A stretch of DNA of 64,000 nucleotides, from assembly GCA_024275165.1 (NCBI GenBank), contig JAJRZQ010000036.1, positions 1-64,000 on the forward strand, written 5' to 3'. Below, in pieces: positions 70 through 43,173 of the stretch. The notes below the pieces were generated by a model. That model ran no database searches, was not told the origin of the DNA, and saw nothing but the letters and a program-made list of their open reading frames with translations. Numbering within the stretch: position 1 is the first letter of the stretch; the number at the start of each line of letters is the position of its first letter. This stretch comes from a bacterium (GTDB taxonomy: Bacteria; SAR324; XYD2-FULL-50-16). A program made the translations under genes and the position numbers.

Positions 70-411
70 GGGGAACTCCTGTTTCGGGCTTAACCTATAA
101 TATCAAAGGGGATAGATAGAGTCTAGCTGTGCAGAGGTCTCGAGTTAGACTTTGGAATGTACGATACATAGATGTTCAGCCTCCACTTTTTGGTCTCCAC
201 AATCTCTTCAAGGCGCGAAAAAAGCTAATTTTAGCCTGCTAGACGGGCGAAGTGCGCCCAGCAAGGCGCAAAACCCCTGAAAAGGGGCTGGTTAGGGATA
301 AAAATCCCAGCAAAAAAGGCGAATTTTCTAGAAAATGTAACAAACTGACTCTGCTCAAGTTGAAATCAGCCTGTTTGAGCTATTTTTCAGACCATCCAAA
401 AGGCTAGCTTA
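70..411. other. Intergenic stretch with three small hairpins
   Basis: No convincing gene. It holds the leader of the partial minus-strand gene, then three closely spaced inverted repeats: GGGCG/CGCCC at 245-259, CCCCT/AGGGG at 274-287 and GGGAT/ATCCC at 295-308, followed by an A/T-rich tract with an ATTTTCTAGAAAAT palindrome near 323. The middle hairpin may be a terminator for the radical SAM gene (listed separately). Confidence 0.4.
270..287 (-). terminator. Weak intrinsic terminator candidate for the radical SAM gene
   Basis: Read on the minus strand, a CCCCT-TTTC-AGGGG stem is followed directly by TTTT. The stem is only five base pairs and lies about 125 bases past the radical SAM stop codon, so the call is tentative. 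Confidence 0.35.
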
Positions 412-1353
412 CTACTTTTGCAGTTTAGCCCACATTGATTTTTGCTGAAAAATATGAGCGTTGCAATTTTTGCAAACCTCGATTTGCTCATAATGATGCT
501 CCAACATTTTTTGCCTATACTCTTTTAATACATCATTTCTCCAAATTTCATGGATCGATTGTTCCATTACATTTCCAAGAGGCGCCCTTAAATCATAATC
601 TAAGCAACATAAACCCGCTTCTCCACTCGAAGAAATCACCATCTCATCCCAAGGGTGAATGCAGGCAAAGTCAAAACTGCTATCTGTAAGGTTTTGCTTT
701 GTACTGTTTACATTTCGGTCTTCAATATCACCCAGCCAAGTATTATATTTATTCACATCAACCTTATCCACCTTTGGTCCCCATTCCTCTTTAAACCTCT
801 CAATCTCATCTTGATTTTCGGTCATATGAATAATCGTGGCCCTTGTTTGAATTTTTTTGGCATTGGATGAAGTCTTTTGATAGTTTAGAAAAAAATCAAT
901 ATTTTCCTTTACCTTATTTAGGGAAATCTTTCGTATTTTAAAATGAGTTTCCTCTGTAGCTCCATCAATATCAAAATTAATCACATCTAAAAGCCCTTCA
1001 TCAATAATGGTTTGGGAGCGCTCCTCGGTAAGATATTCCGAATTACTGGAAAGATAAAGTTTAGCTTGGGGAATTCCTTTCCTGATCGCCCGAAAATGAT
1101 CAATCACATGTTTACTGCACAATGAATCACCAAACCAAAAAAGGTTGATTTTTTTAACCGGTTTTCCCTGACAATCCGCAATAATTTTTTCTAAAATTTC
1201 AGCAGACATGTTCATCTTTTTACGCGTCATGATCGTTGGATGAGGGCACATGATACACTTGGCGTTGCAAGAACTGCTGAGTTCAATGGATAAAAGCTTA
1301 GGAAAGATTTCTTTTTTCGCTTTAAGTAATTTAAATAAAATGTATTTTATCAT
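412..1353 (-). CDS. Radical SAM/SPASM-type protein
   Basis: 313 residues. The N-terminal radical SAM motif C-N-A-K-C-I-M-C (CxxxCxxC, around residues 29-36) binds the 4Fe-4S cluster that cleaves S-adenosylmethionine. The C-terminal part has a SPASM/Twitch-like cysteine pattern (Cys in FACIHPW, the CC of GLCCLDY, and CKNC near the end) that would hold auxiliary clusters. Such proteins modify peptides, sugars or lipids; the substrate here is unknown. It stands alone, transcribed away from the lipoprotein at 1659, with no recognisable precursor peptide or glycan cluster in view. The gene is visibly richer in A/T than its neighbours, which suggests acquisition by transfer (inference). Confidence 0.85.
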   Translation of the reverse strand: MIKYILFKLLKAKKEIFPKLLSIELSSSCNAKCIMCPHPTIMTRKKMNMSAEILEKIIADCQGKPVKKINLFWFGDSLCSKHVIDHFRAIRKGIPQAKLYLSSNSEYLTEERSQTIIDEGLLDVINFDIDGATEETHFKIRKISLNKVKENIDFFLNYQKTSSNAKKIQTRATIIHMTENQDEIERFKEEWGPKVDKVDVNKYNTWLGDIEDRNVNSTKQNLTDSSFDFACIHPWDEMVISSSGEAGLCCLDYDLRAPLGNVMEQSIHEIWRNDVLKEYRQKMLEHHYEQIEVCKNCNAHIFQQKSMWAKLQK

Positions 1354-28483: not shown

Positions 28484-29899
28484 TCACCTCTTTTGGTGCA
28501 GATTACTCCAAACCCCACTGGCATCCAAATACCCCTCGATCCCCGGTGGCAAGGCAAGCGCTCCCTTAAAGCTCGCCCCTTCCAATTTGACTTCCAATAA
28601 AAGGGTTTGCTGTAAATCCGCCCCCTCAAAGCGGGCTCCCTTAAAGTCCACCCGCTCAAAACGGGCTTGGGTCAAGCTCGCCCGATCCAGAAAGGCCCCC
28701 TGAAAATCCGCCTCTAGGGCGACCGCTTGGACCAGCTTCACTCCCGTCATCCGGCTGCGGTTAAAACGGGTAAAGTGCAACTTGGTTTGGCTTAAATCGG
28801 CAAAACTCAGGTTGGCTCCATCAAACTCCGCCCAAGAGAGGTCCGCGCCCATAAAGTTAGCCCCCGTAAGCTTAAAGGGTTTAAAATTGAGGTAGGTCAG
28901 ATTCAAGCCGCTCAAGTCTTCCCCGCTAAAATCAATCTGTTCTTTGTGTCGCTCGACTTGGCGCATTAGGTTTCTCAACGACTTTCTCGCCGCGTCCCCG
29001 CCACCGGCACGCAGGGCTTTAAAATACCATCGCGCCGCCGCGCGGTGATCCTCGTTCACCCCCTTGCCCACCTGATAGAACCAACCGATCTGCAATTGAG
29101 CCGGGTAGTACTCTTGGGTTGCCGCCTTTTGATACCAACTCATCGCCTCGTCCAGATCCAAGGCGAACCCCTCTCCACTTTCAAACATTTTGCCCAAGCG
29201 GGTTTGCGCCTGAGGATTCGTTTGCCTGGCCGCCAGCAAATACCACTTGGCCGCTAAGGATAGATCCCGCGAGGTGCCCACCCCGATTTCATAGAGCCTG
29301 CCTAAGTTGGCCTGCGCCCGAGCGTAACTTTGGTTGGCCGCCTCCTGATACAGGGCAAAGGCTTTTTTCGGTGAGGGAGTAACCCCTTGCCCGGTTTGGT
29401 ATAAAATTCCCAAGTTGTTTTGCGCCCTGGCAAAACCCTGCTCCGCCGCGTCGCGGTAAAGCTCGACCGCTTGCCGCAAGTCCACTACCGTTCCTAAGCC
29501 CACTTCATACATATAGCCGAGGTTGGTTTGAGCAATCGGATCGTCATCCTCTGCCAATTCCCGCAATTTAGGGATGGCTTTACGAAAGAGTTCCGCTGCC
29601 TTTTGCTCGTTTTTTTCTACCCCCTGACCTTTTAAATAGAGCAGCCCCAGATTGTATAATCCGATGGGGTTTTCTTGCGCCGCGGAGCGACGCAACCAAG
29701 GGAGCGCGGCACCCAGAACCCTGGTTCCCGTCTCACCTCGACGCAAACTCCCCCCTAAAACCCCTTGATAATAAGAATCGCCCCCTCGAGCTCTGAGGGT
29801 GATTTCTTGAAAGTCGGTTCCGCTACCGGAAATTAAAGGCTCCGTACCCGAACAAGCGAACAAAAAAACCAAACTAAATAAAACAAATAAGGCTTTCAT
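28484..29899 (-). CDS. Lipoprotein with Sel1 repeats and pentapeptide repeats
   Basis: 471 residues from ATG 29899 (GGAAAAGA upstream; a TTG 15 bases earlier is possible). Lipobox V-F-L-F-A-C, then about six Sel1 repeats (residues about 70-290; A-x-x-N-L-G-x-L-Y-x-x-G-x-G-V) and pentapeptide repeats A-(D/N)-L-x-x (about 320-455). Sel1 repeats form a protein-binding solenoid and the pentapeptides a beta-helix. Anchored to a membrane on the periplasmic or surface side, it is probably a scaffold. The fusion of the two repeat types is uncommon. Confidence 0.88.
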   Translation of the reverse strand: MKALFVLFSLVFLFACSGTEPLISGSGTDFQEITLRARGGDSYYQGVLGGSLRRGETGTRVLGAALPWLRRSAAQENPIGLYNLGLLYLKGQGVEKNEQKAAELFRKAIPKLRELAEDDDPIAQTNLGYMYEVGLGTVVDLRQAVELYRDAAEQGFARAQNNLGILYQTGQGVTPSPKKAFALYQEAANQSYARAQANLGRLYEIGVGTSRDLSLAAKWYLLAARQTNPQAQTRLGKMFESGEGFALDLDEAMSWYQKAATQEYYPAQLQIGWFYQVGKGVNEDHRAAARWYFKALRAGGGDAARKSLRNLMRQVERHKEQIDFSGEDLSGLNLTYLNFKPFKLTGANFMGADLSWAEFDGANLSFADLSQTKLHFTRFNRSRMTGVKLVQAVALEADFQGAFLDRASLTQARFERVDFKGARFEGADLQQTLLLEVKLEGASFKGALALPPGIEGYLDASGVWSNLHQKR

Positions 29900-30001
29900 T
29901 TCTTTTCCATTCAATGAACGATCTCCTTGGTTCTATAACCTGCCAAGGAGTACGGTCAACGCAATTCCCCCGGTACAACTCAAACAAAAAACGCAAAAGG
30001 G

Positions 30002-32380: not shown

Positions 32381-34180
32381 ATGAACATCAGCCTACGCAA
32401 AAAAATTCTCATTGTCTCCCTGATCACAAGCTTGATCGTCTTGACTTTGATTTTCTTTGCCATCGCATCATATCATGGGATGCTGCGCATCCACGACCTT
32501 TGGCACAAGCATGAAAATATCCATGCCAGCGCTACCCTGCAACTCAGTGGAATCAATCGCCAATTGGGCTATGGGGGAATGATCCACAATTTGAAAAACT
32601 TTATCTTAAGAAAAGACCCAAGTCTCGTCCCCAAAATCGAAAAAAACTTTCGCCAAATCGACCAACACCTACGCTACCTGCGCCAGATCGCTCTTTTGCG
32701 CAATGAAAAATATTCCCTACAAAAAATCGAACAGACCTTAAAACAGTATCGAAAAAGCTTTGCCTTGACTCAGGTCTTAGTCCGTAAAAACCTCTCCCCC
32801 CAAGAGATCGACCAACAAGTCAAGGTGGATGACCGTTATGCCAACCAGGCCCTAGATGCTTTAACCGACAGCATTGTCGCCCTGAGTCTAATGCATCAAG
32901 AAGAGTCGGAAAAAGTCCTCCGTCAGGCTGTTTTTCTTTCCATCCTGCTTTTTTTTCTCATTCCCCCAATTGGAGGAATGGGGGTGTATCTGATCTACAA
33001 CCTCAGCCTCACTTCAAAGGCCAACGAAAAAGCGCAAGTCGCGGCCGAAACCAAAAATCGATTTTTGGCCAATATGAGTCATGAGATCCGCACCCCGTTA
33101 AATTCCATGATCGGGATGACCAATCTACTCTATAAAACACCCTTAAACCCGATGCAGGTAAAATATCTAACCTCGGTACGCAAAGAGGCGCAGAATCTTT
33201 TGGGTCTGCTCAACGACATCTTGGATATTTCCAAACTGGAGCAGCAAAAAATGCAACTCCAAACCGTTCATTTCAATTTGCAAGAACTGGCTCAAGAGGT
33301 GATGGATTCTTTTTTAAGCGAATCCCATCGCCAAGGGTTGAAGCTGCAACTCTTTTATGACGCGGCCTTATACCCCTACCGCATCGGCGACTCGGTACGG
33401 ATCCGGCAAGTGATCTACAATCTATTATCCAACGCGATTAAATTTACGACTCAAGGAGGAGTAAGCTTAACCCTCTCCGCTTTAGAAGAAAGCGCTTTGA
33501 AAATTACGATAGAAGATACGGGGAGGGGAATCCCGGAGCCTCAACAACAAGAAATCTTTAAAGCCTTTACCCAAGCGGACAACCATATCACGAAACATGG
33601 CGGAGGAACCGGTTTGGGCATGGCCCTGGTCAAGGAAATTTGCGACCTGCTCCAAGCCCGGCTCTCTTTAACCAGTGAACCGGGCAAAGGAAGCTGTTTT
33701 ACCATTGAGTTGAGCTTACCGCGCAGCACCCCTTATTACCTTGCGAGCGACCCCTCTCACCTTAGCCCTTTACGAATTCTCGTTGCCGAAACTCAAGAGG
33801 AGAGCCGCGCGCTCATCGAATTGCACCTAAGCGAAGCAGGGCACAAGGTCTTTTTTGCTCTGAATAAAGAAGAAGTGGTGGAATGCTGGAAAAACAACCC
33901 CTTCGATTTAATCTTGCTGGATATGCAGATGCCGGAAAAAAACGGTTACCAGGCGGCTAGGGCAATCCGGCGTTTAGAGGCAGAGCGGGGCGGGCACATC
34001 CCCATCATCGCCTTAACCGCAAGCGCCGTATTAAAAAACCCAGAGCAATACTTTCTCGCAGGCATTGATGACTATCTCAGCAAACCCATTGACTTAGCTG
34101 ATTTTGAAGCCAAAGCCACCAGTCTGATGCAGGCCACCCATTCCTTGGGCAATTTGCATCGCCTACAAGAAAAAAAATAA
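32381..34180 (+). CDS. Hybrid sensor histidine kinase with receiver domain
   Basis: 599 residues. Membrane helices at about 9-30 and 182-206 frame a periplasmic helical sensor containing G-Y-G-G-M-I-H-N-L-K-N-F-I-L-R, a motif seen in several bacterial sensors. There is no HAMP domain. Then HisKA (phospho-acceptor His234 in N-M-S-H-E-I-R-T-P), HATPase (N-A-I-K-F-T, D-T-G-R-G-I, G-G-G-T-G-L-G-M) and one receiver (L-L-D-M-Q-M-P with acceptor Asp). No Hpt domain, so a separate phosphotransfer protein or regulator must accept the phosphate. Confidence 0.93.
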   Translation: MNISLRKKILIVSLITSLIVLTLIFFAIASYHGMLRIHDLWHKHENIHASATLQLSGINRQLGYGGMIHNLKNFILRKDPSLVPKIEKNFRQIDQHLRYLRQIALLRNEKYSLQKIEQTLKQYRKSFALTQVLVRKNLSPQEIDQQVKVDDRYANQALDALTDSIVALSLMHQEESEKVLRQAVFLSILLFFLIPPIGGMGVYLIYNLSLTSKANEKAQVAAETKNRFLANMSHEIRTPLNSMIGMTNLLYKTPLNPMQVKYLTSVRKEAQNLLGLLNDILDISKLEQQKMQLQTVHFNLQELAQEVMDSFLSESHRQGLKLQLFYDAALYPYRIGDSVRIRQVIYNLLSNAIKFTTQGGVSLTLSALEESALKITIEDTGRGIPEPQQQEIFKAFTQADNHITKHGGGTGLGMALVKEICDLLQARLSLTSEPGKGSCFTIELSLPRSTPYYLASDPSHLSPLRILVAETQEESRALIELHLSEAGHKVFFALNKEEVVECWKNNPFDLILLDMQMPEKNGYQAARAIRRLEAERGGHIPIIALTASAVLKNPEQYFLAGIDDYLSKPIDLADFEAKATSLMQATHSLGNLHRLQEKK

Positions 34181-34327
34181 AAAAATTGATTTTGCGTTAG
34201 AAAAAACGACCTTCTCGCAGACCTAAAGAAGGGGCAGCATCCTCCATCGGGCTCATTTTCCCTATCGAGTCCTTGCTAAAGGGGAACCTCAACCCACAAA
34301 GCGATTCCACAAAAAACCGAATACCCC

Positions 34328-35479
34328 TTAAAACTTAAAACGATCTAAGGTCTCATTGAGCAGCAGCACCTCAGCGTTCATGCTTTGCCCTACATGATCC
34401 ACCCTTAATATCTTTTCAAAAATCCCTTTCATGGCCTCTTCGTTGCTTGCCGCGTCTTGGGTCGCGCTGATGATCAACTGGCTCATGCCGTTGATCATGC
34501 CCTCTTGACGCTCCGCCGCCGCCGTCACCTTAGAGACCTCCGCGGACACCTCTAAAACTAAAGCGATAATATTGCTGAAAAATTCTTCCATACTGCTGAT
34601 CACCTTGCGCCCCTCGCCGATATTTTTTAAATTCGATTGGGCAAGCGATTCAATCTGATCCACAACTCGGGAGCTGGATTCGGCTAAGGTTTTTACTTCT
34701 CCCGCGACAACCGCGAAGCCTCGACCCGACTCCCCCGCTTTTGCGGCTTCAATCGCCGCGTTGAGAGAAAGCAGATTGGTTTTACGGGTAATATCGCGAA
34801 TATTCGCCATGAACCCGGTCGATTCTTCAATCGCCGCAATGATATCATCCATGGACTTGCTTCCCTTATGAATCACCTCCCTCCCGCTTTGGGCAACCTG
34901 CTCGGCTTCGGTGGTCTTGATCATGACCTGCCGGATCATCTTCAGCCCCTTGGAGTTGGCGCTAAAAAAAAGTTCCGCCGAATAGGTCATCTCCGTTAAC
35001 AGGGCGCTGGTCTTACTGAGCAACCCGACCACTTCTTGCGAAGTTAATTCAATAGATTGGGTCACCTGAGAGAGGTCCGCGCTCGTTTGCCCCACTAAGC
35101 TGGCCGAATGAGCCGCAGTGCGCAGCGTATCCTTTAACCCGTTGCGCATGGTCAACAAAGCGGCAATCACCCCTTTGGGGGTCTCCCCCTTTTTTAAATT
35201 AAAAGAAAAACTTAAATCCCCTGAATTGATACGATTAGCGATACTGCTGAGCTTTCCCGGTTCAGCGCCCAGTTCTTTTTGTACCAACAAGTTGAGCCGC
35301 CAAGCCAGCAGCGCGGTCAAGAAAATAAAAATTCCGGCAATCCACCAACGAGCCAAGGCAAATAACTCCCAACCGCTGGCGAAGCCCAGGAGAAACAAAC
35401 CCAAAATAGCTACCAGAAAGGGCAACAAAATCGCCCTTTTCAATTGCCCTTGATGAGAGAGGATCTCTACTTTTTCCAT
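34328..35479 (-). CDS. Methyl-accepting chemotaxis-like protein without periplasmic sensor
   Basis: 383 residues. Two adjacent membrane helices (about 16-34 and 37-56) with only a few residues between them, then a HAMP-like region (65-110) and a methyl-accepting signalling domain. The hairpin tip T-N-L-L-S-L-N-A-A-I-E-A-A-K-A-G-E is intact, so it can contact a CheA/CheW-type array. Lacking an outer domain, it must sense membrane state or the cytoplasm. Part of the sensory region at 32381-41824. Confidence 0.9.
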   Translation of the reverse strand: MEKVEILSHQGQLKRAILLPFLVAILGLFLLGFASGWELFALARWWIAGIFIFLTALLAWRLNLLVQKELGAEPGKLSSIANRINSGDLSFSFNLKKGETPKGVIAALLTMRNGLKDTLRTAAHSASLVGQTSADLSQVTQSIELTSQEVVGLLSKTSALLTEMTYSAELFFSANSKGLKMIRQVMIKTTEAEQVAQSGREVIHKGSKSMDDIIAAIEESTGFMANIRDITRKTNLLSLNAAIEAAKAGESGRGFAVVAGEVKTLAESSSRVVDQIESLAQSNLKNIGEGRKVISSMEEFFSNIIALVLEVSAEVSKVTAAAERQEGMINGMSQLIISATQDAASNEEAMKGIFEKILRVDHVGQSMNAEVLLLNETLDRFKF

Positions 35480-35568
35480 GGAGTGACTACCTTACAAATG
35501 CTTATTTAATCTCTTTATGCCATAAACCCTATTGTAGAAGCAATAGCTTTAGGCTTATATCTCTTTGT

Positions 35569-37380
35569 TTATAAAGGTGGCTCTCTTAGTTCGGCCCCTT
35601 CTAGGTTTGCGCCTTTTGTCCGAATCTCGTCGTAAATCGCTAAAGAGAGATCCAGTTTCTTTAAATTCGCGCCGCTGAAGTCCGCATGATTGAGATACAC
35701 CCCCTGACAACGGGCTCGAACCAGGTCTGCTTGGCGAAAATTCGCCTTTTGAGCCTCCGCGTTCTCCAAGCGGGCTCGACTCAATTTGCATTGTACAAAA
35801 CAAGCCTCATTGAAGTTGCCGGCGGTCAAATTGGCTCCTTGTAAATTGCCTTGGCTAAAGTCCGCTTTCAAGGCCTGTACATGGCTTAGATTTGCCTTCA
35901 CCCAATTGCAGCCCTGCGCTTGTACCTCGGATAAATCCGCTCCCTGCAAAAGCCCCTTGGGCCAGTTTGTCGCTTGTAAATTCGCCCCCATCAATTTTGC
36001 CTCCTCCAGCACGATTTTCCTCCCTTTGGAAAAAGAGAGATCCGCGCGGCTTAAATCAGCTTGAGCCCACCTCGTCTTTTTTACCTTTGCTTTACTTAAA
36101 CTCGCGCCGGTAAAATCGCTTTGGCTCAAGTCGGCATATTTCAGGCAGGCCTCTTCTAAGTGGGCGAAACGAAAGTCGGCCTCAACCCCCTGGGCGGATT
36201 GAAATTGAGCTTTCCGCGCCCTGCACATCACAAAACTGGCCCCCTGCAATCGGCAGTGCGTTAGCTTTGCTTCTTTTAGGTTCGCCTCCTTGAACGAGGC
36301 CCCTTGCAGGTTGGCCCCCGCTAAATTTGCCTTAGAGAGGTCCGCCCCCTGTAAAATCGCGCCGCTTAAGTTGATTTTTTTAAAAGAGATCCCACCCCAG
36401 GGCGCTTTTGGCCAGATTAATCCGCTTAAATCGCGCCCTTTCAGCCAACGGGGCTGAAGCTTAGCCCCTTCTAAATTGGCTTCTGCCCAATGGCAATGAA
36501 AGGGGGAGGCCTGTTCCCAATTTGTGGCGCGCAAATCCGCCCCCCTAAAATCCGCTCCTTTGAGCCGCGCCCCGATCAATTTAGCGGCAATCAGTATCCC
36601 TTTGGAAAAGATTGCCCCTGGAGCAAGCACGCCCCTTAAGTCTGCTCCAGTCAAATCGGCACCTGTTAAATCCGCGTGAGCCAACCGACTTTGCCCCAGC
36701 AGGGCATGGTTTAACTTCGCCCCCTGCAAACGGGCCTGGCGCAGGTCCGCCCCTTCTAAATGAGCGCTGCGCAAATGCGCCTGTTCCAGGTTCGCCCCGC
36801 GCAAATTGGCCCCTTGCAGATTGATTTGGTTTAAAATCGCCCCCTTTAAGGTTACCCCAGAAAGCTTTGCCCCCTGAAGTTGCACCCCTTCTAAATTAAT
36901 CAGGTACAGGGTCGCCCCCTCTAAATTCGCCCCCTCAAGCCGGGCGTAACGGAGCATGGCGCGAGACAACAAAGCCCCCCTCAGTTTCGCCTGAGAAAGA
37001 TTGGCCGCTAAGAACACAGCGCCCGTTAGGTCGGCACCGCTTAAGTCCGCTTTGACTAAATTCGCCCCCATCCACTGCGCGGCCTGCGCCCGAACCCCCT
37101 TCAGCTTGGCCTGAGCCAAGCGGCCCTTGCTTAGGTTGGCATGGGCTAGATTCGCGCCGCTCAAGTCCGCTTTTTGAAAAATCGCCCCATGCAAGTCGGC
37201 TTTAAAAAAATTAGCCCCACGCAAATCAGCACCCTGGAACACGGAAAAAGCTAAATTGGCCTCGCAAAAATCAAAGCCTCTTAGTTTTTGACCGATAAAC
37301 ACGGCCCGACGGCCCTTGGTTTTATCCTCGAGCCAGTCTTGATGTTCTTTTAAAACAATAGCGATGCTTTTTCGTTCCAT
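35569..37380 (-). CDS. Very long pentapeptide-repeat protein
   Basis: 603 residues from ATG 37380 (the upstream frame lies in repeat sequence). After about 35 residues (M-E-R-K-S-I-A-I-V-L), the protein is an almost unbroken run of roughly 105 pentapeptides A-(D/N/K)-L-x-x, with K, Q, R and H unusually frequent at variable positions. It should form a long right-handed quadrilateral beta-helix. No signal peptide or membrane helix, so cytoplasmic. Some such proteins mimic DNA and shield gyrase; whether this does is unknown. One W-P-K-G or W-P-K-A segment near residues 330-345 breaks the pattern. Confidence 0.93.
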   Translation of the reverse strand: MERKSIAIVLKEHQDWLEDKTKGRRAVFIGQKLRGFDFCEANLAFSVFQGADLRGANFFKADLHGAIFQKADLSGANLAHANLSKGRLAQAKLKGVRAQAAQWMGANLVKADLSGADLTGAVFLAANLSQAKLRGALLSRAMLRYARLEGANLEGATLYLINLEGVQLQGAKLSGVTLKGAILNQINLQGANLRGANLEQAHLRSAHLEGADLRQARLQGAKLNHALLGQSRLAHADLTGADLTGADLRGVLAPGAIFSKGILIAAKLIGARLKGADFRGADLRATNWEQASPFHCHWAEANLEGAKLQPRWLKGRDLSGLIWPKAPWGGISFKKINLSGAILQGADLSKANLAGANLQGASFKEANLKEAKLTHCRLQGASFVMCRARKAQFQSAQGVEADFRFAHLEEACLKYADLSQSDFTGASLSKAKVKKTRWAQADLSRADLSFSKGRKIVLEEAKLMGANLQATNWPKGLLQGADLSEVQAQGCNWVKANLSHVQALKADFSQGNLQGANLTAGNFNEACFVQCKLSRARLENAEAQKANFRQADLVRARCQGVYLNHADFSGANLKKLDLSLAIYDEIRTKGANLEGAELREPPL

Positions 37381-37500
37381 GGGGTTCCACTTCGATCCCC
37401 CAGAGGAATAGCGTGCGGGGTTTAATGACTCGGTTTCAAAATAGCAAATTGGCCTCACTTGGCAAAGAAGGAAAAAAAGAACTTGCCTCCGCAAGCGCTC

Positions 37501-37590
37501 CGCTATTTCAATATGCTCCGCAGGCTGGGGCTGAGAGCCCCAGACCCCAATGGTTTTTTAAAATCAGAAATTATATAAGAACCTCATTAG
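37501..37590 (+). repeat. Dispersed hairpin repeat, family 1, copy B
   Basis: Matches 5731-5820 and the reverse strand of 30045-30134. Contains CGCTATTT, ATGCTCCGC, the perfect stem CTGGGGCT-GAG-AGCCCCAG and TGGTTTTTTAA. The right end (TTATATAAGAACCTCATTAG) is more diverged. Confidence 0.85.
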
Positions 37591-37591
37591 T

Positions 37592-37686
37592 AAAGGAAAC
37601 TCTGAAAAATGCGGAGTTTCCCAGCAAGACATGGATACCTTGCCAAATCAAAAAGTGTAACTTATTAAGTTGCATTGAGGTTGGGA
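37592..37686 (-). repeat. Dispersed repeat, family 2, copy 2
   Basis: Reverse complement of 24179-24273 with scattered substitutions. Its outer end forms the hairpin GGAAACTC-N11-GAGTTTCC at 37595-37621. Directly abuts family 1 copy B. Confidence 0.8.
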
Positions 37687-37878
37687 CTTTAATTCCAACG
37701 CTTGAAATTGAAAAACTCCAAAAAGTTCCTCAATGTAGGGGCAGGTAAAGCAAAAGGAATCCCTTGCAAGACAATTCAAACTTTGGAGTTTTCCCCAAGG
37801 CCCGGAAATAAAATCGCTAAAGAAGCGCTCTCCGAATTGCAATCCTTTCGCGTATAGAGGATAATCAAAAAATACAGC

Positions 37879-38295
37879 TTAGTTTGGGCTTAAGCCAGAG
37901 CGTTGCGCTACCTTGGCTTGAAACTCAAAAATTCTCTGAATTTTTTCATTTAAGACCTGCGCGTCATAAGGCTTGGTCATATAATTCGTTGCTCCCGCTC
38001 GCATGGCCGACATGATATTTTCCGGCTCCTCATCCGCCGTAACCAATAAAATAGGTAATTGCCGCCAACGCTCATTCGCGCGAATCGCGGCAACCAACTC
38101 CAGACCGTTCATTTTCGGCATGATCCAATCCGAAATAATTAAATCAAACTCTTCATCCTCCATTTTTTCCAAGGCTTCCACCCCGTCTTCAACCAGTTCG
38201 ACATCCATAAAACCGATATTGCGTAAAATTTTTTTAACCAGCATCCTGGTTCCTACGGAGTCTTCAGCGACTAAAATGCGAATGTCTTTATCCAT
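37879..38295 (-). CDS. CheY-like single-domain response regulator
   Basis: 138 residues, one receiver domain and no output. The acidic pocket E-D at 11-12, acceptor Asp56 in I-I-S-D-W-I-M-P, Thr86 and Lys108 in T-K-P-Y are all present. It would diffuse to its target, as CheY does. Divergent from the CheA-like kinase at 38388 with a 92-base gap, which is likely its phosphate source. Confidence 0.93.
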   Translation of the reverse strand: MDKDIRILVAEDSVGTRMLVKKILRNIGFMDVELVEDGVEALEKMEDEEFDLIISDWIMPKMNGLELVAAIRANERWRQLPILLVTADEEPENIMSAMRAGATNYMTKPYDAQVLNEKIQRIFEFQAKVAQRSGLSPN

Positions 38296-38387
38296 GATTC
38301 ATTCAATGTTTCAAACAACTTGGGTAGTGAAGAAATTCAATCTTAAATTTACCTTCTTTTCTTCCCTTTGTCATCCTTCCATGAACC

Positions 38388-40484
38388 ATGACTGACGAAC
38401 AAAAATTGCAAAACTTGCTCCATAGCCTGCAAAAAACCTTAGAAAACGCGGAACCCTCCATCCGGGTGCGCAGTCTGCAAACCCTCTTGGATTTCAAAAG
38501 AGAACTTTTTAAAGATAAAACCATTGAGGAATTCTTTGTTGGCGATCCAAGCTTTTTTTCCCCCATCGCCCCGGACCCGGAAAGAGAAGAACAAGAAAAA
38601 AAAACAAAACAAAAATTACTTTGTTACTTGCAACGGTTAAAAGAAACCCCTTCTTTAGTGCGTTTTTTGGTCGGTTTTGCCGAATTGGTTCCCTTTGAGG
38701 CCGGGCAAACCCTAATCTATGCGGACAAGGTTCCAGAGGGTTTGTTGATCTTTCCCGCCAGCTTAGAGGTGAAACTCCCTACAGGGGGCTCGATTCAACG
38801 CTCTGCCGCGCTTTTAGGGGGCCTTTCCCTCTCCCAACCGCCCCGCGCCTCGCAAATCACCTGCATCGCGCGACAGGCCTGTACGGCCCTGCTCTTACCG
38901 GCTGAAAAACTGCAACCGATCTTATGTCTACACCCCGACTTACAAGAAGCCCTCTTTGATGAAATCTTGCAAGAAGAAGAACAAGAACTCTCCGACGCCT
39001 TGCGCGATGGAGGAATATGCCAAGAGCAACAACGCCAGATTCGAGCGATGATCAACAACATGGGCCAAGCGGTCTTTACCCTCGACCCCAATGGAGAAAT
39101 CGGTGAGTTCTCCGGTTTGGCGGCTCGGTTTTTAGGTTATGAAGACCTAACGGGCCGCCCCTTTGCCGATCTAGTGCTGCGTCAAAATGAAAAAAAACTC
39201 AAATCCTATTATCGCGCTTTACGCCTGCTCCATAGCGGCAACCGGCTTGATCCGGGCGTTGTCTTAAGCCTTCTTCCCGCTGAGCTTACCTTGAATGAAG
39301 CCCATTATCGCTTCCATTACCAAATCATTGAAGACATTCAAGGCTATGTCTTAAATCTCATTGTGCGGATGGAAGAGATCAGTAAAGAACTCGAAATGGC
39401 CCGGATGCGGCAAGCCGCGGAAGAAGAGCGGGAAAAGGAACAGCATATTTTAGATCAGGTTCGTAACAACATCGGCAGTTTTTTAAACCTCTTGGAATTG
39501 ATTGAGGAAAATCAAACAACCTTAAAAAAGTACCAAAAAGACTTTGTCGATCCTTTACTTCCCCCCGACCAGCAGCAGACCCAAAGCTTAGTCAACAGCC
39601 TGCACACCATCAAAGGGCTTTGCAGTCAGTTTGAAATCACCCCTTTAAAAACAGCGGCCCATCAGATGGAAGGCGCGGTGCGGGCCTTTGCCTTAACCCC
39701 CTCCCAAAAAGCCGCAAGCTTTAAGGAGCAGCAAAAACAATTAAAAAAACAATACCGCTACACCCAAAGCTTAGTCGAATCCCTAGGAGAAAAGGTGCTT
39801 TCGATCTTACGAGGGATTCACTTTAGTCCTGCGGAGTTCGACCAGCTCCGCCAAGCGGTCGATGAACAAAATTGGAAGCAAGCAAAGTGGCAATTGCAAA
39901 AAAAGATCGACCTCCCCCTCAGCGCCATTGCCGAGGGGTGGGAAAAAGATATTGCCCAATTGGCGGGGCAACTGGGCAAAGAAGTCGCCTTTGAGGTTCA
40001 AGGAGACGAAAATCTACTCCTCCCCATCGCTTGGGTCAAAACCTTAAACGCGGAATTGCGTCATATCTATCGCAATGCCTTAGACCACGGTTTTGAAACC
40101 CCCAAAGAGCGCACCCAAGCGAAAAAACCGCCCCAAGGCCAACTCCGTTTAGAGGCAAACGAAAAACCAGGAATGTTAGAACTCACCTTGAGCGATGACG
40201 GAAGGGGAATCGACTTCACTCAAATCATTGCTCTGGCCAAGAAAAAACCGGAACTCGATCAAGCCGTGATTGAGGATTTAATCCATCAAAACGAGGCCTG
40301 GCGGATTTTATTGCTTCCTGGATTTTCCTCGGCAAAACAGCTGAGCAGCATCAGCGGGCGAGGGGTGGGCCTGGACGCGGTCGAGCAGGCTTTGGCAAAA
40401 CTCGGGGGCACTTTAAAAATTGAAACTGAAAAAGGAAAAGGCAGCCGCTTCATCATCCAGCTTCCTTGGGCAGGAAAAGGCTAG
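38388..40484 (+). CDS. CheA-like histidine kinase with PAS and Hpt domains, lacking CheW domain
   Basis: 698 residues. Region 90-190 has the feel of a cyclic-nucleotide-binding-type fold (F-E-A-G-Q-T-L-I-Y); PAS lies at about 214-330, followed by a helical linker. Hpt: H-T-I-K-G-L with phospho-acceptor His406. ATPase: R-N-A-L-D-H-G-F-E (562-570, a CheA-type N box), D-D-G-R-G-I-D (603-609) and G-R-G-V-G-L-D-A-V (657-665). In CheA the Hpt comes first and the protein ends with a CheW-like domain; here Hpt is central and the protein ends after the ATPase. Soluble. Likely passes phosphate to the divergent CheY-like protein. Confidence 0.88.
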   Translation: MTDEQKLQNLLHSLQKTLENAEPSIRVRSLQTLLDFKRELFKDKTIEEFFVGDPSFFSPIAPDPEREEQEKKTKQKLLCYLQRLKETPSLVRFLVGFAELVPFEAGQTLIYADKVPEGLLIFPASLEVKLPTGGSIQRSAALLGGLSLSQPPRASQITCIARQACTALLLPAEKLQPILCLHPDLQEALFDEILQEEEQELSDALRDGGICQEQQRQIRAMINNMGQAVFTLDPNGEIGEFSGLAARFLGYEDLTGRPFADLVLRQNEKKLKSYYRALRLLHSGNRLDPGVVLSLLPAELTLNEAHYRFHYQIIEDIQGYVLNLIVRMEEISKELEMARMRQAAEEEREKEQHILDQVRNNIGSFLNLLELIEENQTTLKKYQKDFVDPLLPPDQQQTQSLVNSLHTIKGLCSQFEITPLKTAAHQMEGAVRAFALTPSQKAASFKEQQKQLKKQYRYTQSLVESLGEKVLSILRGIHFSPAEFDQLRQAVDEQNWKQAKWQLQKKIDLPLSAIAEGWEKDIAQLAGQLGKEVAFEVQGDENLLLPIAWVKTLNAELRHIYRNALDHGFETPKERTQAKKPPQGQLRLEANEKPGMLELTLSDDGRGIDFTQIIALAKKKPELDQAVIEDLIHQNEAWRILLLPGFSSAKQLSSISGRGVGLDAVEQALAKLGGTLKIETEKGKGSRFIIQLPWAGKG

Positions 40485-41824
40485 ACGGATTTCAAGCTTA
40501 AAAAAATATCCATCGCCTGCTCCCCAAAAATCTCATAGGGGTCGTAATCTTTGGCAATCTTGCGCTCTTTTTCCAAAGCGAGATCCAGCATCGGATTGGG
40601 CTTGAGGTCCTTACCGCTCCCATCGCGCACCAAAACAACCTGGGGGCGTTTTAAGTCTTTTTGCGGCACCTTTAAGACAAAACCGAGACTCCCATCGTCT
40701 AACTCCACCAAGCTGCCCACAGGGTAATAACCCATAGCCTGCACAAAGTCATCCCATACCTTTTCATCCAACTCCACACCGGCCAAGGCTTCAATAAAAC
40801 GAATGGCGGCGGGGGCGGACCAAGATTTTTTATAACTCCTGCGACCAATCAACGCCTGATAGATATCAATGATGGCCAGCAATCTGGTTTCATAAAGCAT
40901 GTCCGCGTACTTAAACCCCACCGGATAGCTCGCGAAATTGGATTCATCCATTTTTACATGATGATAACCCGCTAGATTAACACAATAATCGGGCAAACCC
41001 AGTTCTTTTAAAAGCTCAATAGAGTGGGTCGGATGCGCGCGCATGGCTTCCATCTCCGGGCTATTTCTCTCAAAGCGCACCGTAGATTCTAAAATCTCTT
41101 TGGGTACCTTAGATTTTCCCAGATCATGCAAAATCGCCGCCAACAAAAGCTCATGCTCACTTTGAAAAATACCTTTTTCCCCCTTGTTTTGCATGATCTT
41201 TTTATAGACACCTAAATAAATCACCCCGACATCCACACAATGGGCATAGGTTTGATCGCTCTGCTTCAAGCTCGCCAAACTACTCATGGCCGCGCCAAAA
41301 GAGCTTTCGATGATCTGCTCGACTAAGCCCTCGACCTCATTAAGCTTCATCACCCCCTTGGCAATGTTATCCATCAACTGCTCAACGGCCTTGCTCGCGT
41401 TTTCCCGCACCGCCACGCTTTTTTTGGCTTTCGCCACAAAGCTATTGGCTTCGCGTGCCGCCTGTTGCCGTTGCTCTTCTTTGGTGGAAGGGCGCACCAA
41501 AAATTGTTTAAAACCCTGACGCTGCAACTCACGAATCAATTTCTGGGTCACATGAACAAGATGATGCAATCGAGAGGGGAGTTCTTCCACCTGCATCAGC
41601 AGGTCTCCCTCTTTTACCTGATCCACCCGGACCACCTGCTCATTGCCACCTCGAGTCACCTTTGCCTTCGCGCCGGGAAAATTGTGAGATACCCATTGGC
41701 AAGACTTTGCGTCCAAAAGACCTAGCTTTTCAACCAGCCCCTGGTAGGCAACAATGTTCATTCCTTCTTCTAGTTGGGCGATCCCCACCTCTTTGACATT
41801 CTCACTCATTCCATACCTATCCAT
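40481..41824 (-). CDS. HD-GYP-like phosphodiesterase with degenerate GYP motif
   Basis: 447 residues; an ATG 15 bases downstream (41809) is an alternative start. A DUF3391-like N-terminal region (about 8-115) and HD domain: I-L-H-D-L-G-K (His233-Asp234), H-P-T-H-S-I-E and Y-H-H-V-K-M-D (288-293). The signature HHE-x-x-DGxGYP is here H-H-V-K-M-D-E-S-N-F-A-S-Y-P, so the metal ligands are mostly kept but GYP is changed. It may hydrolyse c-di-GMP weakly or act as a sensor. Overlaps the CheA-like gene end by four bases, convergently. Confidence 0.85.
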   Translation of the reverse strand: MDRYGMSENVKEVGIAQLEEGMNIVAYQGLVEKLGLLDAKSCQWVSHNFPGAKAKVTRGGNEQVVRVDQVKEGDLLMQVEELPSRLHHLVHVTQKLIRELQRQGFKQFLVRPSTKEEQRQQAAREANSFVAKAKKSVAVRENASKAVEQLMDNIAKGVMKLNEVEGLVEQIIESSFGAAMSSLASLKQSDQTYAHCVDVGVIYLGVYKKIMQNKGEKGIFQSEHELLLAAILHDLGKSKVPKEILESTVRFERNSPEMEAMRAHPTHSIELLKELGLPDYCVNLAGYHHVKMDESNFASYPVGFKYADMLYETRLLAIIDIYQALIGRRSYKKSWSAPAAIRFIEALAGVELDEKVWDDFVQAMGYYPVGSLVELDDGSLGFVLKVPQKDLKRPQVVLVRDGSGKDLKPNPMLDLALEKERKIAKDYDPYEIFGEQAMDIFLSLKSV

Positions 41825-41889
41825 TAAATCGAAGGAACCATAAATCTAAATCAGTTTGTATAAATTGGCAAACTCATCACTAAAAACAC

Positions 41890-43173
41890 TTAAGGAGAAT
41901 TGCGGATAATACGCTCCTTGATGCGATGCACCCCATACCACACGCTGAGTAAAACCACAGGGATACTGATCGCGCTGATGATTTCCGCATTGAGCCTCAG
42001 CCCCAACTTTTCACCCCCTTTGAGTAAAATTTTGAGCAAGCTCACCATATAATAGCTGATCGCCGCGATCGAAAGACCTTCCACCGCCTCTTGCAACCTC
42101 AATTGCAGCTTCCCCCGCGCGTCTAAGGAGAGCAGCAAGGCTTGGTTTTGCTCTTCCAACCTCAGACTGATTGAGGTTCCCAATAACTCGCTTGCCTGTT
42201 CGATTCGGCCTGCCAATTCCTCAATGCGCGCTCTCACAACCCGGCAGGTTCGTTCCGCCGGAGTGAGCCGCCGCCGCAAAAAATCACCCAAGGTCAGATG
42301 ACCGGCAAGCTTTTCTTCTTCCAAACCCAATAAAATTTCCTGCGCCAATTTAAAATAGGCGTCGGTGGCCCCAAAGCGAAAGGAGTGGGCACGCAGTTCC
42401 GTCACGGCAATGGACATTTCGGTTAATTTAGAAAGTAGGCTTTGCTCGTCTTCTAAACTTTGAATCTGTTTAATCTGATCCGCCACCAAGATCAACGAAT
42501 AATCCATGCGATTGAGCGTCGGCGAAATTTGCCTCGCCAAGGGAAGCGCCAACAAAGCTAAGATGCGATAGGTCTCCAACTCCAATAAACGCTGCACCAC
42601 TCGCCCCGTCTGGGCCTCGCCCAGTTGATCGCTTAAAACCAGATAGCGGCCGCAGCCGTCTTCATGGAGGTCTAAAGAAGACCAAACCTCTGCCCCACCT
42701 CGGCGTACCCGACTCCCCACAATCGCCTTGCCCGAAAAAAGCTGGTGAATGCGCTGATGATCGTATTTCTTCTGGGCCGAGTCCACCACCAAGTGCGTTG
42801 AAATCAAGAGTTTACCGGGAATCCCCTCCATCCACGCAGGAGGAATGCGTTTTAAGGGAGGATTGGAAAAGGGCTCTTGATACAACCCCGCCTCAAAAAA
42901 AGCGTAACTGGAAAACTCCCCGTGCCGCTGCCAGCGAACCCGCACAGTGCCTAAGTTTTCCGTATAGGAAAGGCAACCGGGCTCTGGGGTCGGCGCTTGA
43001 AAATCTTGGGCCAAACGGCAAAGATGGGCTCGCTCCTGCTCGGCCGTGGCCGCGCCAAAAGGGACGACCAATAAGCTAACCCGACAGGGTGTGGGCAACC
43101 TGGGGAAAGGTCTGGAATGACTCTCTTGATAGAGCGCCTCCTTTAAGGGATGCATTTTTTCCGGGCTAAGCAT
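41890..43173 (-). CDS. DUF3422 family protein
   Basis: 427 residues. Opens with H-P-L-K-E-A-L-Y-Q-E-S-H-S-R-P-F-P and the central R-x-R-G-G-A-E-V pattern typical of DUF3422, with a long helical middle and one membrane helix near the C-terminus (about 400-418). Such proteins are probably membrane-anchored; the function is unknown. Standing between the HD-GYP and hydroxylase genes. Confidence 0.88.
   Translation of the reverse strand: MLSPEKMHPLKEALYQESHSRPFPRLPTPCRVSLLVVPFGAATAEQERAHLCRLAQDFQAPTPEPGCLSYTENLGTVRVRWQRHGEFSSYAFFEAGLYQEPFSNPPLKRIPPAWMEGIPGKLLISTHLVVDSAQKKYDHQRIHQLFSGKAIVGSRVRRGGAEVWSSLDLHEDGCGRYLVLSDQLGEAQTGRVVQRLLELETYRILALLALPLARQISPTLNRMDYSLILVADQIKQIQSLEDEQSLLSKLTEMSIAVTELRAHSFRFGATDAYFKLAQEILLGLEEEKLAGHLTLGDFLRRRLTPAERTCRVVRARIEELAGRIEQASELLGTSISLRLEEQNQALLLSLDARGKLQLRLQEAVEGLSIAAISYYMVSLLKILLKGGEKLGLRLNAEIISAISIPVVLLSVWYGVHRIKERIIRNSP

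Follow-up and report, generated by a model that had tools for sequence, protein, structure and literature searches.

The domains P1, P3, P4 and P5 were present in every CheA collected in a 2023 survey and were treated there as the core CheA domains (Berry et al., 2023; PMC10782961). The CheAs in that survey were identified through these core domains, so the absence from it of kinases lacking P3 and P5 does not imply that such kinases are rare (PMC10782961), and a literature search that covered few subscription journals found no CheW-less kinase of CheA type with fused sensor domains described. Among HD-GYP proteins, PmGH has seven metal ligands that are common to both HD-GYP groups, and its R314 and K317 contact guanine; the substitutions D183A and D308A cause a loss of activity as severe as that of metal-ligand mutations, whereas mutants of the GYP motif, R314 or K317 show no such strong loss (PMC4159591). 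DvhD is a metal-free c-di-GMP receptor from which the HD and HH residues have been lost (PMC13090378).

The window analysed here, a stretch of 64,000 nucleotides, comes from a SAR324/Ca. Lambdaproteobacteria MAG (2.69 Mb, 98% complete). An earlier note on this DNA had drawn six ORFs together as a non-canonical chemosensory-like pathway, and all six were found where it had placed them (Table 1). Ordinary che equipment is present elsewhere in the host, with five canonical CheW-bearing CheAs, 15 CheW-domain matches and about 14 MCPs. The genome also encodes FliM and, besides the normal protein, a very divergent second FliM-family match (G000:C41:22332-22907). A scan of 37700-42000 for promoters and terminators gave counts near those of shuffles and nothing usable. 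Elsewhere in the window (28484-29914) there is a protein in which Sel1-type and pentapeptide repeats are apparently joined, with a lipoprotein-like N-terminus.

Table 1. Features of the locus (nucleotide positions in the window) and domains of the kinase (residue numbers)
Feature	Position	Strand	Evidence
CheW-less CheA-type sensor kinase, 698 aa	38388..40484	+	Pfam, family alignment, AlphaFold, P4 fold match, P4 tree
CheY-like single-domain response regulator, 138 aa	37879..38295	-	Pfam Response_reg, adjacency, clade
HD-GYP-like protein, 447 aa	40481..41824	-	Pfam HD_5, adjacency, metal ligands, fold
Membrane MCP, 383 aa; neighbour, probably not part	34328..35479	-	Pfam MCPsignal 7.3e-26
Hybrid histidine kinase HisKA-HATPase-REC; neighbour, probably not part	32381..34180	+	Pfam
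Pentapeptide-repeat protein, 641 aa; neighbour, probably not part	35569..37494	-	Pfam
Kinase: cNMP-fold domain	residues ~90-180		
Kinase: long helix (42 residues)	residues 183-224		AlphaFold model
Kinase: PAS domain	residues ~217-330		Pfam E 3.6e-5
Kinase: coiled coil	residues 332-360		AlphaFold model
Kinase: Hpt domain, phospho-accepting His406	residues ~362-464		Pfam E 2.4e-6
Kinase: P4 ATPase	residues ~510-693		Pfam HATPase_c E 9.9e-14

The conserved unit at this locus consists of the kinase, the CheY-like regulator and the HD-GYP-like protein, and not of six genes. Among the 13 kinase loci of the family that were compared, the HD gene adjoins the kinase gene tail-to-tail in ten (the window, C19 of the same genome, G002, G003:C89, G004, G005:C44, G006, G007:C66, G008 and G009), and a CheY gene adjoins it in five (the window, G001, G002, G004 and G003:C33). 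The HD gene is the sole partner neighbour in many SAR324 loci, and in some neither partner is found. Since the host has just three HD genes of this family (matches above 500 bits), the adjacency of kinase and HD genes is poorly explained by chance; it recurs across genera at 30–50% protein identity with the orientation kept. The window kinase and CheY genes are divergent and separated by a 92-bp gap, and the kinase gene shares 4 nt with the HD gene at their stops (CTAG), a 4-nt overlap that the gene coordinates show in G004 too. Given these divergent and convergent arrangements, the three genes do not form one operon. The host carries a second such kinase–HD pair, with no adjoining CheY gene (L047:5640-9062, G000:C19).

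The six-gene cluster was rejected as a unit, as in relatives the kinase does not retain homologues of the MCP, the hybrid kinase or the pentapeptide protein as neighbours: no orthologue of the hybrid kinase and no match to the pentapeptide protein were found in the relatives' kinase neighbourhoods, and the window MCP is not orthologous to the MCPs near other kinases of the family. Pfam gave the order HisKA-HATPase-REC for the hybrid kinase, which also has a weak 4HB-like N-terminus, and a signalling domain for the MCP, whose reported lack of an outer domain agrees with two transmembrane segments that have almost no loop between them when the sequence is read by eye. The pentapeptide protein, its start uncertain (TTG), does not deserve the description 'giant' at the length given in Table 1. 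In a genome outside the family (L079:5881-9470, G042:C93), genes for an MCP and a CheW-less cNMP-Hpt-P4 kinase lie on one strand and overlap by ~4 nt, as if translationally coupled.

The description of the kinase as carrying a PAS domain, a central Hpt domain and a CheA-type ATPase, and as lacking CheW, was borne out by Pfam and by the family alignment. Within the Hpt motif LHTIKG (LHxxKG in the family) lies His406, a residue that all 16/16 close relatives share, and RNALDHGFE at residues 562-570 is a CheA-type N box. The box residues of YRNxxDHG, DDGxG, GFS and SGRGxG are, together with His406, invariant in the alignment of 16 full-length family members, and because of this invariance the window kinase is predicted to be one that should be catalytically active. 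That the gene is a broken CheA pseudogene was considered and rejected, the catalytic residues being invariant and the CheW-less form being common to the whole clade. In an AlphaFold model of the protein (mean pLDDT 79.5, pTM 0.40, so that the placement of the domains is unsure), the ATPase matches the CheA P4 domain 1i5c with a Z score of 22.5 and an rmsd of 2.7 over 179 aligned residues at 36% identity.

Pfam found no CheW (P5) domain in the kinase, and there is no room for one since the chain stops ~5 residues past the ATPase. Nor did Pfam find P3 (H-kinase_dim) in the kinase or in the kinases related to it, although this library detected the domain in the host's five canonical CheAs, at E 1e-9 to 1e-13 in four and as a weak match in the other; as P3 is poorly conserved generally, and certain P3 matches need HHpred, this absence is to be read as P3 not being detectable. 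The rearrangement of CheA reported earlier was thus correct as to the missing CheW domain and incomplete as to P3. With P5 absent and P3 undetectable, the window kinase is not a CheA by the published definition (PMC10782961).

The cNMP fold is genuine across the kinase family. Ten of 16 members match PF00027 (the window kinase itself falls below threshold), the family profile matches the CNBDs of cGMP- and cAMP-dependent kinases in the PDB, and residues 59-201 of the kinase model match the HCN2 CNBD with a Z score of 15.1. In the phosphate-binding cassette FGE...R(S/T)A, with the columns read by eye, the Arg position is never Arg in any member of the family, and the window kinase also lacks the FGE motif. 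Ordinary binding of cAMP or cGMP is unlikely for this reason, and these nucleotides were set aside as candidate inputs. Of the two domains that had been suggested to receive the signal, the PAS domain is a reasonable choice, and the cNMP-like domain is without the canonical residues for a ligand. Adjoining one relative of the kinase, in a single case, is a gene for a protein that combines cNMP-binding, class III cyclase and PilZ domains (L070:10114-11868).

When 68 P4 domains were placed in a midpoint-rooted tree, a single supported group (99/93) gathered 24 CheW-less kinases and was separate from the sampled CheAs. Its members come from SAR324, two Bdellovibrionia MAGs, one Rhodoferax MAG contig and Jezberella, and the CheW-bearing CheAs of the same genomes are placed outside it. 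The remaining CheW-less kinases (a betaproteobacterial HAMP type, a 7TMR-DISM type and a C13 protein) branch elsewhere, and because CheW-less kinases fall in separate places, CheW presence or absence has changed at least three times on supported branches; the midpoint root gives these changes no direction and does not distinguish loss of CheW from its primary absence. Each of the ten genomes in the window's family has a strong match to the kinase, as do several of a second family. The full architecture was found in only 1/59 sampled genomes of the class Bdellovibrionia and is therefore not general there.

Several loci met in this comparison merit separate mention. A Bdellovibrionia MAG has a kinase of the same clade, paired with a receiver, a few kb from CheA, CheW and a CheR–CheB fusion (L082:1207-10009). 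A small contig binned as Rhodoferax (L081, CAMCZF010000200.1) carries a cNMP-Hpt-P4 kinase and a CheY, by transfer or misbinning. In the host itself, one CheW-less protein joins a 7TMR-DISM membrane sensor with Hpt and a CheA-type ATPase (L049:5301-8063, G000:C8). In Betaproteobacteria, a CheW-less che-like operon recurs (L105:1090-5741, L106:6216-10856 and L102:1-4058, also L096, L103, L104 and L107), in which a HAMP/4HB-Hpt-CheA-type kinase is followed by a 240–260 aa MCP-hairpin protein, often by a protein of ~180 aa, and by a CheX-domain protein.

The regulator, reported earlier as CheY-like, is a receiver domain (Pfam Response_reg 1.1e-27) with Asp12, the acceptor Asp56, Thr86 and Lys108. 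It scores best against the CheY model PRK10610 (1e-37, below that model's cutoff). The kinase-adjacent CheYs form a supported clade (99/96), apart from one long-branch row, and the window protein is 45–53% identical to them versus at most 45% to paralogues from its own genome; the paralogue on C8, which looks canonical by eye, is 45% identical.

The HD-GYP-like protein (Pfam HD_5 7.6e-18) has an N-terminal alpha/beta domain and a C-terminal beta domain of its own. Its seven core metal ligands (H195, H233, D234, H264, H288, H289 and D320) are invariant in 9/9 members of the HD family, and it is likely from these residues that the protein binds metal. Also invariant are Lys237, Arg329 and Lys332, the equivalents of K225, R314 and K317 of PmGH, and the equivalent of Y285 is kept too. 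Elsewhere the site has changed: HHExxDGxGYP is replaced by HHVKxD....SYP with a 3-residue insertion before SYP, and the equivalents of D183 and D308 of PmGH are invariant Ser189 and Gln323, the former position placed by its offset from an aligned His and not by structure. The adjective 'degenerate' applied to this protein therefore fits the motif, these two positions and the insertion, and does not fit the metal site or the Lys237/Arg329/Lys332 set. As D183 and D308 are essential in PmGH, hydrolysis by the HD protein is doubtful, and whether it would cleave c-di-GMP is uncertain; with its metal ligands kept and other enzyme-essential residues replaced, it is a putative modified phosphodiesterase or c-di-GMP receptor. 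A metal-free receptor of the DvhD kind was rejected, because the HD family retains its metal site and DvhD is without HD and HH (PMC13090378). The closest fold to the model is that of Bd1817 (Z 15.0, rmsd 4.1–4.2, about 211 residues); confidence in the model is low near the catalytic region. Kinase-adjacent HD proteins cluster in the HD tree, yet not as one clade. HD paralogues of this family sometimes stand alone with no kinase nearby, so the HD protein can presumably work without the kinase and has further roles.

We hypothesize that the three proteins form a stand-alone sensor pathway, which probably does not belong to the standard chemotaxis machinery. Our current working hypothesis, drawn from the sequences and to which we give a probability of about 0.6, is that the kinase is a soluble, array-free sensor whose His406 donates phosphate to Asp56 in its own CheY, with the HD partner coupling the pathway to a cyclic dinucleotide. 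The PAS domain, the cNMP-fold domain or both would read a cytoplasmic signal, and the two long helical segments (Table 1) would carry it onwards and probably also hold the dimer together, as P3 does in CheA. The P4 ATPase would then phosphorylate His406 in the Hpt domain, and the phosphate would move to the adjacent CheY-like protein. With P5 absent and P3 undetectable, the kinase is expected to work outside CheW/receptor arrays, and the earlier proposal of a pathway independent of CheW is a fair reading given the CheA-related catalytic core, the missing domain and the conserved synteny with CheY and HD genes. The CheY-like protein may act on the flagellar switch, for which a target is available since the host has FliM, or on the HD protein. 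The latter, the most constant partner, may hydrolyse or sense the messenger, most likely c-di-GMP, and so couple the pathway to it.

The kinase might instead be an array-independent side input to ordinary chemotaxis: the CheY that it phosphorylates would compete for a shared FliM with the canonical one and so bias the swimming that the five canonical CheAs control. We regard such a role as possible, if somewhat doubtful: the resemblance of the window CheY to the C8 paralogue and to the CheY model, the presence of FliM and the two Bdellovibrionia MAGs with a kinase–receiver pair a few kb from CheA-CheW-CheR/CheB genes all agree with it, but the HD partner points to c-di-GMP, in place of motor control or alongside it. 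Of the two circumstances that together were to refute the earlier reading, a normal che system elsewhere in the genome and no link of kinase to regulator, just the former holds: ordinary che systems exist, but the synteny supports the link. That the three genes are chance neighbours from separate pathways is very unlikely, for while their divergent and convergent orientations and the solitary HD paralogues would be consistent with it, the repeated adjacency across genera with orientation kept and the 4-nt stop overlap shared by the window and G004 are not.

The MCP, which the earlier note had counted as a member of the pathway, might be the true partner, a receptor that regulates the CheW-less kinase itself with neither CheW nor P5 in between, and this we judge very unlikely. 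Five loci (the window, G002, G004, G003:C33 and, outside the family, G042, where the two genes overlap) do have an MCP gene of one kind or another no more than about 7 kb from the kinase, and betaproteobacterial CheW-less kinases often precede an MCP-hairpin protein and a CheX-like protein. MCP genes are dense, however, at roughly one per 150 kb, so that one or two such neighbours are expected by chance; the G002 and G004 loci, being syntenic, do not count as two separate cases, the MCPs are not orthologous to one another, and the enrichment was judged weak. The MCPs have hairpin tips of the ordinary type, intact in the window MCP, the host offers CheW proteins and canonical CheAs in number, and the kinases have no domain known for MCP binding. 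The same low standing applies to the broader idea that chemosensory signalling could do without arrays and CheW, an MCP, or an MCP-hairpin protein on its own like that of the betaproteobacterial operons, directly driving a CheA-type kinase that lacks P5 and P3.

Returning to the stand-alone sensor pathway, it is interesting to consider what such a kinase may offer. CheA is usually defined by its array-coupling parts, and here is a family in which the Hpt and P4 pair probably acts as an ordinary sensor kinase. The family is a natural test of which CheA parts are needed for catalysis and which for arrays alone, and of how CheA-type kinases gain or lose array coupling. For SAR324/Lambdaproteobacteria, the unit is a candidate link of cytoplasmic sensing, motility and c-di-GMP.

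The kinase resembles CheA in its Hpt domain, in the sequence and fold of its P4 ATPase and in its CheY-type neighbour, and differs from it in lacking P5 and any detectable P3, in the central rather than N-terminal position of Hpt, and in carrying PAS and cNMP-fold sensor domains. With PAS sensor histidine kinases of the HisKA type it shares cytoplasmic sensors linked to the catalytic core through coiled coils, but it has an Hpt phospho-acceptor and a CheA-type ATPase and no HisKA. The betaproteobacterial CheW-less kinases and the 7TMR-DISM kinase on C8 of the host are alike in having a C-terminal Hpt and CheA-type ATPase without CheW; they differ in their membrane sensors (4HB/HAMP or 7TMR-DISM), in their neighbours (MCP hairpin, CheX) and in falling outside the supported cNMP-PAS P4 clade. 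The HD protein, finally, shares the HD fold with PmGH and Bd1817 and its family keeps the metal ligands and the K225, Y285, R314 and K317 equivalents, while departing from both in SYP for GYP, in Ser and Gln for D183 and D308, in the 3-residue insertion and in its own N- and C-terminal domains.
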